Source: a virus. Taken from it: a DNA stretch of 26,916 nt. Shown here piece by piece: positions 22,943 through 26,916 of the stretch. Under the pieces are notes generated by a model that saw only the letters and a program-made list of their open reading frames with translations, was not told where the DNA came from and did not search any database. Location of the stretch: positions 1-26,916 of IMG/VR virus record IMGVR_UViG_3300026078_000079; one strand, written 5' to 3'. Within the stretch, counting starts at the first letter, position 1. Every line of letters starts with the position of its first letter. A program made the position numbers and the translations under genes.

Positions 22943-23296
22943 ATGGATAAAGAGATTAAACTTCGTGAGTGTCCGTTTTGTGGGTCAAAGCCTATCTATG
23001 GTGGGTATCCCGATGTTTCAATTCAATGCAAGCAATGCAGGCAATCGATAGTGAAGGCATCTTGGTATAAAGGAGATATGGGTACAATGGAGGCATCATG
23101 GAACACCAGAGCAGAATCACGCAAACTAAAGATGTTTGATGAGTTGATATCCAATGCTGGTACTTTTGACGGACAATTGACTAACTTGTTTTCTCAAATG
23201 AACGAAGGCAAGAATCCGAATAATCGTGCAGCGTTAATGGCGTCTTGGATAAATCTTAAGGATGTTCTCGCCAAAGCTAAGAAGGAGATAGTGTGA
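22943..23296 (+). CDS. Lar-like zinc-ribbon protein (restriction alleviation family)
   Basis: A 117-residue protein. Residues 8-57 have the Lar-family layout: CPFCGSKPIYGG (C10, C13), a second knuckle CKQCRQS (C29, C32), and the closing ASWNTRA motif. Lar of Rac prophage lessens host type I restriction. Family members in phage early operons are often of unknown function, so restriction alleviation is only a possible role. The C-terminal 60 residues are helical and unrelated to the core motif. The ribosome site is a modest GGGAGAATAACC. The stop overlaps the next gene. Confidence 0.65.
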   Translation: MDKEIKLRECPFCGSKPIYGGYPDVSIQCKQCRQSIVKASWYKGDMGTMEASWNTRAESRKLKMFDELISNAGTFDGQLTNLFSQMNEGKNPNNRAALMASWINLKDVLAKAKKEIV

Positions 23297-24292: not shown

Positions 24293-24310
24293 ACACTGAT
24301 GGAGGATAAA

Positions 24311-25192
24311 ATGAGTAAGCTTAAAGCGGTCAAACCCAAAACAGCGGAACCCAAGAAACCAGCGATTCTAATTATGGGTGAAGCCGGGATGGGGAAAACT
24401 TTTACCTCCCTGGATTTTCCTAAAGTATATTATATTGATGTGGAGCGGGGAGCCACCAATGACCACTACACCAGCAAATTAGAAAAATCGGGCGGCGTTT
24501 ATTTCGGCCCAGATCAAGGTTCGCAGAGTTTTGATGAGGTCCTTGAACAAGTCCGCGCCTTGCGTTCCGAAAAGCATGACTACAAAACACTTGTCATTGA
24601 CAGCTTCACAAAGCTATTCAACATCGCCATTGCTGATGAGCAAGAACGCCTGAAACAAAGGAAGCAAGAAGATGCATTCGGAGCCAGCAAAAAACCTGCT
24701 GTGGCATATGCCCGCCAACTAGTAAATCTGCTTGGCAGCCTGGATATGAATGTTATTCTAATTTGCCATGTTAAACCCAATTGGGAGGGCGGAGAACAGA
24801 GGGGTGTTGTAGAGGATGGATGGGACAAGCTTCGCTACGAATTGGACCTAACCATGGAAATACGCAAGCAGGGCGGTGCACGCATGGCCCTGATTCGCAA
24901 ATCTCGCCTAGAGCAGTTCCCAGAGGGCGCTAATATTCCTTGGTCTTACGAAGAATTTTCTAAGCGATGGGGTAAGGATGTTATCGAACAGGAGGCAACC
25001 CCGGTATGTCTGGCCACCGAAGATCAGCTTAAAGAATTCAGATATCTTAGCAGCATCGTTAAGATCCCCGAAGGCCAGGAAGACAAATGGCTAAAAGTCG
25101 GCGGAGTAGAAAAATTCGAGGATATGGCCACCGATAAGATGCAACTTATCATCAATATTCTTAAATCTAAAATTACCGCGACTACTAATTAA
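24311..25192 (+). CDS. Sak4-like AAA/RecA-type ATPase, recombination module
   Basis: A 293-residue protein starting MSKLKAVKPKTAEPKKPAIL. It has Walker A MGEAGMGKTFTS (residues 22-33), Walker B KTLVIDSFTK (Asp97), a conserved VILICHVKPNW strand near 148-157, and a C-terminal region without known motif. This layout fits Sak4-type single-strand annealing ATPases, which are shorter relatives of RecA and act with SSB. It probably promotes phage DNA recombination or repair. The start is ATG 24311 (GGAGG, 5 nt); an upstream ATG at 24299 lacks a ribosome site. The leader shares ACTGATGGAG with other early genes. The DUF669/SSB-like gene two genes on supports the call. Confidence 0.7.
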   Translation: MSKLKAVKPKTAEPKKPAILIMGEAGMGKTFTSLDFPKVYYIDVERGATNDHYTSKLEKSGGVYFGPDQGSQSFDEVLEQVRALRSEKHDYKTLVIDSFTKLFNIAIADEQERLKQRKQEDAFGASKKPAVAYARQLVNLLGSLDMNVILICHVKPNWEGGEQRGVVEDGWDKLRYELDLTMEIRKQGGARMALIRKSRLEQFPEGANIPWSYEEFSKRWGKDVIEQEATPVCLATEDQLKEFRYLSSIVKIPEGQEDKWLKVGGVEKFEDMATDKMQLIINILKSKITATTN

Positions 25193-25461: not shown

Positions 25462-25938
25462 ATGCGCGGCAGATGCTTCGATGTTGTGGCTACTCGCTGG
25501 AAAACAAGAGTGGAGTGGCCGCGAGATAAAGATGCAAAAGTAGAATGGATTGGTTTTGAAGCAAATATTCAATGGTTGCTTTATGAGGGCTGGAAAATAT
25601 TTCTCGAAACCAATCATTTTACGAAAGAAACAAAGGTATTATTCAGACATGAGAAGCATGTATGTTTTGCAAAAGCATCATATACTCCGGGATTTACTAT
25701 AGTTGTGTATTCCATGACTAACCAATCGAAGTTATGGGATATTCGGGCTAAGATTGGCGATCATTTAATAGCCATGAATGATATCGACAGGTCTTGCTTG
25801 CTGGATATTTTAATCAAAGATGTCCAACCCAAAAAGATTAAGAGAAATAAAGTAATTGATATAAATAATTATATTGAAACCAGAACTGAGGTTCTAAACA
25901 AACGGAGAAATAACCATGCAATTCACCCCCAAAACTGA
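25462..25938 (+). CDS. Hypothetical early protein (158 aa)
   Basis: Not recognised. The protein has many aromatic residues (TRWKTRVEWPRDKDAKVEWI, WLLYEGWKIFLE) and alternating beta stretches, then a Lys-rich C-terminal tail (KKIKRNKVIDINNY). The start ATG stands 2 nt after the preceding TAG with no good ribosome site, so coupling is likely. Its 3' end overlaps the next gene by 23 nt. It is flanked by recombination genes, which suggests a DNA-metabolism accessory, but nothing in the sequence shows it. Confidence 0.5.
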   Translation: MRGRCFDVVATRWKTRVEWPRDKDAKVEWIGFEANIQWLLYEGWKIFLETNHFTKETKVLFRHEKHVCFAKASYTPGFTIVVYSMTNQSKLWDIRAKIGDHLIAMNDIDRSCLLDILIKDVQPKKIKRNKVIDINNYIETRTEVLNKRRNNHAIHPQN

Positions 25939-26410
25939 CGCAGATTTCCAACAAGAAGAAACCGAACGCAAAAACAAATTCGTTTGGCCTGCGAATTCTG
26001 TTGTTGATTACGAAATCAAATCGGCAACCGAGAAGCTGAGTAAAAAAGGCAAAGACATGATCGAGGCCGATGTCGATGTCTATAACGCAGCCGGAGAAGC
26101 GCAAACTATTCGCGTATGGCTCGGCGAATGGAATCTATGGCTGGTCAAACATATTTGTGAAGGTAATGGGCTGCTGGCTGAATACGAAAGCGGGAATGTT
26201 CATGATTATGATCTGATTGGCAAAACCGGCAAAGCAAAACTGAACATCCAAAAAGGTGCGCAGAAAGAAGATGGGACTTTCTATCCGGATAAAAATGGTA
26301 TCGCTGATTTCTTGCTAAACGACGAACAGCAAGTGGCCAAGACTGAACGTAAGACTGCGTTGGCCAAGGCTTCCGGTGATTTTGATTTTGAGGATACAGT
26401 CCCATTCTAA
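25916..26410 (+). CDS. DUF669 / SSB-like protein
   Basis: A 164-residue protein. The pattern (MQFTPKTDADFQQEETER, IKSATEKLSKKGKDMIEADV, VWLGEWNLWLVKHICEGNGL, YDLIGKTGKAKLNIQKG) resembles DUF669 phage proteins, which look like single-strand DNA-binding folds and lie next to Sak4-type genes. The last residues, DFDFEDTVPF, resemble the acidic tip of bacterial SSB (DDDIPF), which docks partner proteins. It probably coats single-stranded DNA for the Sak4-like ATPase. The ribosome site is CGGAGAAATAACC before ATG. No other catalytic motif. Family assignment from motif memory. Confidence 0.65.
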   Translation: MQFTPKTDADFQQEETERKNKFVWPANSVVDYEIKSATEKLSKKGKDMIEADVDVYNAAGEAQTIRVWLGEWNLWLVKHICEGNGLLAEYESGNVHDYDLIGKTGKAKLNIQKGAQKEDGTFYPDKNGIADFLLNDEQQVAKTERKTALAKASGDFDFEDTVPF

Positions 26411-26462: not shown

Positions 26463-26480
26463 ACTGATGAGGAGAGAGAA

Positions 26481-26916
26481 ATGACTAACGAAACGATCAA
26501 AAACCAAGCAGAACTAGAAATCGAAGCACTCGCTGATGTATTCCGCATAGCAACGAGCGGCTTTGATGATTTTTATAAGGAAGCGGAGAAGAAAGACAAG
26601 GGCGACTCCAGCAAGGCTGCGTCCTCGGGCTACTCCAGCAAGGCTGCGTCCTCGGGCAACTACAGCACGGCTGCGTCCTCGGGCGACTCCAGCACGGCTG
26701 CGTCCTCGGGCTACTCCAGCAAGGCTGCGTCCTCGGGCGACTCCAGCACGGCTGCGTCCTCGGGCTACTCCAGCACGGCTGCGTCCTCGGGCTACTCCAG
26801 CAAGGCTGCGTCCTCGGGCGACTCCAGCAAGGCTGCGTCCTCGGGCGACTCCAGCACGGCTGCGTCCTCGGGCTACTCCAGCAAGGCTGCGTCCTCGGGC
26901 AACTACAGCAAGGCTG
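26481..26916 (+). CDS. 27-bp tandem-repeat protein, N-terminal part (runs off the right edge)
   Basis: The ATG at 26481 follows GAGGAGAGAGAA. Residues 1-40 (MTNETIKNQAELEIEALADV, then FRIATSGFDDFYKEAEKKDK) are helical and charged. From 26601 to the edge the protein is 11 full copies plus part of a twelfth of a 9-residue unit GDSSKAASS; only residues 2 (Asp/Tyr/Asn), 3 (Ser/Tyr) and 5 (Lys/Thr) vary. A 9-residue SxA/SSG period suggests a beta-solenoid (related phage repeats of similar AASSG type exist, function unknown). GC content of the repeat is about 70%, far above the flanks. The end and function lie outside the window. Confidence 0.85.
   Translation, partial: MTNETIKNQAELEIEALADVFRIATSGFDDFYKEAEKKDKGDSSKAASSGYSSKAASSGNYSTAASSGDSSTAASSGYSSKAASSGDSSTAASSGYSSTAASSGYSSKAASSGDSSKAASSGDSSTAASSGYSSKAASSGNYSKA
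26601..26916 (+). repeat. 27-bp in-frame tandem repeat array (11.7 copies seen)
   Basis: Units start every 27 nt: 26601, 26628, 26655, 26682 and so on to 26898, the last cut by the window edge. The unit is 9 codons. Apart from codons 2, 3 and 5, all copies are identical at every base, including third positions, which means recent amplification or ongoing gene conversion. Confidence 0.95.

Follow-up and report, generated by a model that had tools for sequence, protein, structure and literature searches.

The window, the whole stretch of 26,916 bases analysed here, is a linear viral record whose contig terminates within a tandem array. This array (26600-26916) was the only one found in the window by TRF, with a period of 27, 11.7 copies, 93% matches and 0% indels, and its units are in the frame of the repeat-protein ORF listed in Table 1. 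Codon 2 of the units is GAC, TAC or AAC, codon 3 is TCC or TAC and codon 5 is AAG or ACG, while the remaining codons are invariant. The initial annotation, made from the sequence alone, had described eleven complete units and part of a twelfth that vary at codons 2, 3 and 5 alone; our reading agrees, also with the unit order that it listed. Its estimate of about 70% G + C in an A/T-richer setting was likewise borne out, as the array has 69%, compared with 47.7% for the window and 40% for the kilobase upstream. The Sak4-like gene, in contrast, had been placed two genes upstream of the repeat gene, but three ORFs lie between them. As a by-product of its 27-bp period, the array can be read without stops in one more forward frame and in two reverse ones as well (26497-26916, 26563-26916).

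Table 1. Features of the repeat-protein gene and of neighbouring genes in the window
Feature	Position	Strand	Basis
Lar-like restriction alleviation protein (phrog_599, 2e-6); belongs to the early cluster that includes the repeat gene	22943-23296	+	Profile match
Sak4-like ssDNA annealing ATPase (AAA_24; phrog_124), four genes upstream of the repeat gene	24299-25192	+	Profile match
164-aa gene directly upstream of the repeat gene, without family match	25916-26410	+	ORF list, family search
Shine-Dalgarno-like AGGAGAG upstream of the ATG at 26481	26470-26476	+	Direct reading
Repeat-protein gene, 5' part, running off the contig end	26481-26916	+	ORF list, comparison with L002/L135
N-terminal segment of about 40 aa, type A 'QAELEIEALADVFRIATSGFDDFYKEAEKKDK', predicted helical	26481-26600	+	Common to many phage loci; AlphaFold helix
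Eleven 27-bp (9-residue) units, G-[DYN]-[SY]-S-[KT]-A-A-S-S	26601-26897	+	Sequence reading, TRF
Partial twelfth unit (GNYSKA), 19 bases	26898-26916	+	Sequence reading, comparison with L002

The gene is complete in a near-identical 33.5-kb contig (L002/L135), which is 99.97% identical to the window over 6,272 bases, the first 11 units included (blastn). The complete gene encodes 331 aa, comprising a short helix, the array and a conserved C-terminal domain of about 190 residues that follows the last D-type unit. The two sequences diverge at 26909, where the window continues into an NYSK unit and L002 into the C-terminal domain. This unit type is absent from the rest of the window array. The end of the window may represent an extra unit (a variant path) or a mis-extended contig end, and the exact unit number in the window is uncertain. 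The complete protein matches phrog_4433 (1.9e-15) and phrog_27197 (8.4e-13); the window ORF stops short of the C-terminal cap. Neither the window ORF nor the L002 protein had a Pfam match, DUF7666 included, but DUF7666 is present in a relative (L018, 5.8e-29). PHROG 4433/27197 and DUF7666 are the only known families matched, and all are functionally unassigned. PADLOC gave no match, no near match was found in E. coli complete genomes, and the literature, as far as our partial coverage reached, held no description of the unit sequences, of DUF7666 or of hypervariable tandem repeats in phages. Two candidate functional labels were rejected: for the ADP-ribosyltransferase label of DUF7666 in Acinetobacter phages, a profile search of solved structures was empty, and an A1 profile match to Spt5 (E 6e-4) falls within the repeats and was taken as compositional.

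A search for relatives, which had been proposed along with the initial annotation, was productive. Three protein scans and one unit-profile scan of viral contigs recovered about 60 contigs with the same repeat, and a scan of bacterial and archaeal genomes added 8 loci, one of which, in the isolate Janthinobacterium sp. CG3 (L097), contains the complete gene. The repeat gene occurs in many unrelated bacteriophages, with 4 to 34 complete units per array. At least four N-terminal types (a short helix, an 'FPQGG' helical domain, DUF7666 and a phrog_18079 type) and two related C-terminal caps are found together with the repeat. In Tetrasphaera phage TJE1, the C-terminal domain of the window type forms a separate small gene (orf51; L173, 5094-5492), indicating that it is an independent module; this gene is close to an ERF-family gene, with one gene between them. 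Two separate repeat-protein genes with different arrays are apparently present on a single phage contig (3300028766_000008; L134 and L158). In the cultured phages Emek (L179) and fEg-Aba01 (L186) the gene is frameshifted, and thus it is not always needed; the fEg-Aba01 array is open for a stretch in another frame.

Structure prediction, also proposed at the outset, returned one 7-residue beta-strand and an S-G turn per unit (AlphaFold). In the model of the window family, confidence within the array is low (pLDDT mostly 41-67), whereas the model of the Janthinobacterium prophage protein (230 aa) is good (pLDDT about 75-87 in the array, overall pTM 0.68). From the alternation along such a strand, residues 3 and 5 would point outwards and the small A/S residues inwards. 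Fold searches with the two models gave no significant match among solved structures.

Polymorphism was analysed in 697 units of 67 arrays, taken from contigs of viruses and bacteria. Codons 2, 3 and 5 encode more than one amino acid in 66, 60 and 63 of these arrays, respectively, but have synonymous variants in only 1, 2 and 2; at the remaining codons, synonymous polymorphism was found in 4-11 arrays and amino-acid polymorphism in 0-6. Mean heterozygosity is 0.43 at unit nucleotides 4, 8 and 14 versus 0.042 at fourfold sites of the same units, a ten-fold excess that favours the three sites in 66 arrays and the fourfold sites in none (Wilcoxon p about 2e-12). None of 120 simulated neutral arrays with unit turnover gave this contrast. 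Thus, DIVERSIFYING selection on the protein keeps the three sites diverse, and the units are otherwise homogenised, array by array. The constant codons themselves vary between phages, with 50 signatures in the 67 arrays, which indicates that each array was homogenised separately and that the pattern does not reflect common descent of one DNA unit. The arrays do not resemble CRISPR-like or other non-coding arrays either, since the reading frame is kept and the substitutions are protein-directed. Array finders can nevertheless take the repeat gene for a phage CRISPR, as in Vibrio phage 1.185.O, where the coding array of a relative (L184, 1857-2074) is annotated as CRISPR spacers.

The residues used are D, N or Y at position 2 (E and H are rarer), S or Y at position 3 (H, N and G rarer) and T or K at position 5 (R rarer). 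Products of transitions, namely F, M or I (e.g., TTC, ATG), are rare or absent at codons 3 and 5, and hence the alphabet reflects selection on the protein and not mutation bias. Across 69 arrays, linkage between residues drops with distance inside the unit, from z = 17.9 for positions 2-3 to 6.7 for 3-5 and 2.6 for 2-5 (4, 6 and 10 nt apart, respectively), as expected if exchange breaks linkage. The earlier statement that AAC in codon 2 always goes with TAC in codon 3 concerns just two units in the window, although codons 2 and 3 are strongly linked over the wider set.

These data bear on the possibility that the array is a structural or solubility scaffold, the length and unit types of which drift through the ordinary turnover of a coding minisatellite with no recognition role. 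Slippage and recombination add units to tandem arrays and remove them in any case, and the wide length range of the arrays and the lack of strong non-random order would fit such drift. However, neutral turnover cannot produce the ten-fold excess over fourfold sites seen in 66 of 67 arrays, and did not do so in the simulation, nor can it single out identical sites and residues in phages whose codons differ, and we consider a mere scaffold unlikely.

The number and order of units change between near-identical phages. Two metagenomic loci with flanks 99.85-99.9% identical carry 6 and 10 units (L139 and L140); with identical 4-kb flanks, L092 and L146 differ by one unit and L112 and L141 differ in unit content. 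In four of the five metagenome pairs (L092/L146, L112/L141, window/L002 and L121/L129) the arrays touch a contig end, and these pairs carry lower weight. Among cultured P. aeruginosa phages, Flu_PA14_4 and YA3 are 99.8% identical in both flanks and have 27 and 28 units, respectively, with a longest common run of 3 units, no more than in shuffled arrays. Large repeated blocks of 8 and 12 units are found inside these two arrays (3.9 and 4.5 in shuffles). Some close pairs (L114-L116, S107/S135 and 5371/5399) have identical arrays; thus, change is frequent but not universal. The proposal in the initial annotation of a rapidly changing, recombining repeat protein is in keeping with these results: number and order are not fixed among related phages, although some close pairs are identical, and the diversity is confined to three codons. 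The unit order had also been called non-random-looking, but neither a clear autocorrelation nor a strong non-random pattern was found. Simulated block duplication gives no autocorrelation as well, and random order is therefore not used as evidence; a period-2 order (two units per coil) showed a weak even-odd contrast (p = 0.03) on which we do not rely.

The same few residues recur in the cultured relatives. At residues 2-3, the P. aeruginosa phages use the words NR (50), DY (37) and YQ (32), with 9 others. Salmonella phage and coliphage relatives have 11 (ES18), 22 (SEN22), 4 (S107) and 4 (ECO95) units, mostly with D/N/Y followed by Q/W/R/C. Edwardsiella phage GF-2 has 21 units on another backbone (GxxAxIGSS), with DS, DR, ND or YY and with R or Q at position 5, and the same three positions therefore vary on different constant residues.

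Such words call to mind TAL effectors, in which homogeneous DNA units are told apart by an adjacent residue pair drawn from a small set and arranged in varied order. By this analogy, the pair at residues 2-3 would be a code letter, and the unit order would spell out a nucleic acid or a repetitive polymer as the target. The phage units do share homogeneous, near-identical DNA and a tightly linked variable pair in varied order, the P. aeruginosa phages use almost only three words, and GF-2 has its own DS, DR, ND and YY. The TALE repeat, however, has 34 residues and is helical, with two helices, whereas the phage unit has 9 residues and forms one strand in the models. Moreover, no nucleic acid-binding domain was recognised, and near-identical phages, which presumably have the same genome targets, have unrelated array orders. 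A reader of this type is thus quite unlikely.

The genomic setting is that of early genes. The cultured relatives lie in early operons (ES18 gp53, SEN22, S107, the P. aeruginosa phages, GF-2 and fLi-Aba), and in lambdoid relatives the repeat gene is located directly after the antiterminator N and before cIII/kil/erf. It adjoins ral in UPF_BP1, and in SEN22 it is next to a gene for superinfection exclusion. Of the neighbours recognised in the metagenome phages, the most frequent encode HTH repressors, Erf, exonucleases, helicases, polymerases and HNH nucleases, and no structural genes are among the frequent neighbours. The repeat-protein sequence has no hydrophobic N-terminal stretch. This setting is indicative of an early intracellular protein and, as far as position tells, makes a role on the virion surface unlikely. 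It had been suggested earlier that the array could belong to a surface protein. A protein of the virion surface or tail, with diversity that serves host range, would be in line with the beta-repeat stacks that are common in tail fibres and adhesins and with the tailspikes among the weak, non-significant matches of the PDB comparison. The gene and its relatives are nevertheless surrounded by early genes for regulation, recombination and replication and not by virion genes, and we regard a virion protein as very improbable.

A diversity-generating retroelement, or another form of targeted mutagenesis of the three positions, might be considered given that many variants could be derived from an AAC TAC AGC AAG template through adenine changes. 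However, the adenine in the invariant AGC hardly ever changes, and variation in codon 5 is nearly confined to its second base. In addition, 40 viral records with the array, which are possibly incomplete, yielded no reverse transcriptase in a search whose control gave signals in the expected genomes; this last result argues against a retroelement model, and the chance of such a mechanism appears slight. That the array is an assembly artefact, a concern raised earlier in favour of which 40 of 68 array-bearing contigs end in an array (ten of them at both ends), can be practically dismissed, as many arrays are found in cultured phages and 29 are complete within contigs, one of them in the Janthinobacterium CG3 isolate genome. 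The presence of the array accounts for the many phage contigs that break off at a single point. Ten 'linear' records, among them 3300022557_000010, 3300045391_001696 and 3300047496_000093, have the same kind of array at both contig ends; each is probably an entire genome, circular or redundant, that was opened at the array.

Taken together, the most probable explanation, to which we assign a probability of roughly 55%, is that the array forms the middle of an early intracellular phage protein and is predicted to be a selected, recombining beta-repeat surface for recognition of, or as a decoy for, a changing partner. The protein would consist of a short N-terminal domain, a stack of beta-repeats (probably a solenoid) and a conserved C-terminal cap. 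Each 9-residue unit would contribute one short strand and show side chains 2, 3 and 5 on the surface, so that, with a small alphabet, the protein would display a string of a few 'letters'. Arrays change through the gain, loss and replacement of units, and misaligned (unequal) recombination between units or arrays would be the cause; the repeated blocks and the decay of linkage fit unequal recombination or array exchange, which we infer to be responsible. The initial annotation had suggested the phage's own Sak4-like protein as a possible shuffling agent, but this is not general, as a Sak4-type AAA_24 domain is above the cut-off in only 8 of 40 array-bearing records. With less certainty, the variable face may bind a varying partner, much as fungal NLR sensors do with their hypervariable repeats. 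The most likely partner would be a protein of host defence or regulation or one of a competing phage; a decoy role is also possible. More tentatively, the family might represent a widespread form of combinatorial recognition in phages, in which strand units with two- or three-residue words are recombined into strings and provide an intracellular, rapidly changing surface against host defence or rival phages, a binding surface that possibly guides the different N-terminal domains.

Compared with known families, the closest are the proteins of PHROG 4433/27197, including those with DUF7666 (PF24703) such as ES18 gp53, which have the same order of N-terminal domain, 9-residue repeats and cap and the same variable positions 2 and 3. 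The N-terminal domain of the window protein is not DUF7666, however, its type of C-terminal domain is longer, and its unit consensus is GxxSxAASS instead of GxxSAATNT or GxxSAASNT. Phage diversity-generating retroelements (e.g., PMC6199706) are alike in having hypervariable positions within a fixed scaffold, but no reverse transcriptase was found with the arrays, in records that may be incomplete, and it is tandem units that vary. The WD40 repeats of the Podospora NLRs het-d and het-e, of the HIC (high internal conservation) kind, are near-identical through concerted evolution. Four of their codons are hypervariable under diversifying selection, their arrays are polymorphic in length, and short-read assembly fails on them (PMC12222747). 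The phage arrays share with them the near-identical repeats, the few hypervariable selected codons, the polymorphism in number and order between close relatives and the assembly symptom, seen in the same 40 of 68 contigs. They differ in that the phage protein is an early protein built of 9-residue beta-repeats, not WD40 propeller blades, and no NLR architecture with WD40 repeats was found, the window ORF and the L002 protein having no Pfam family. Hypervariable repeat proteins as such are already known, and what is described here is a phage protein family without a described function. By analogy, it would work like an HIC-repeat sensor without being a member of that group. If its variable face does recognise a partner, phages would have a route other than retroelements to diversify an early intracellular protein, comparable to the hypervariable repeat sensors described in fungi, and in tractable carriers such as Salmonella phage ES18 and the P. 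aeruginosa phages this partner can be sought directly.
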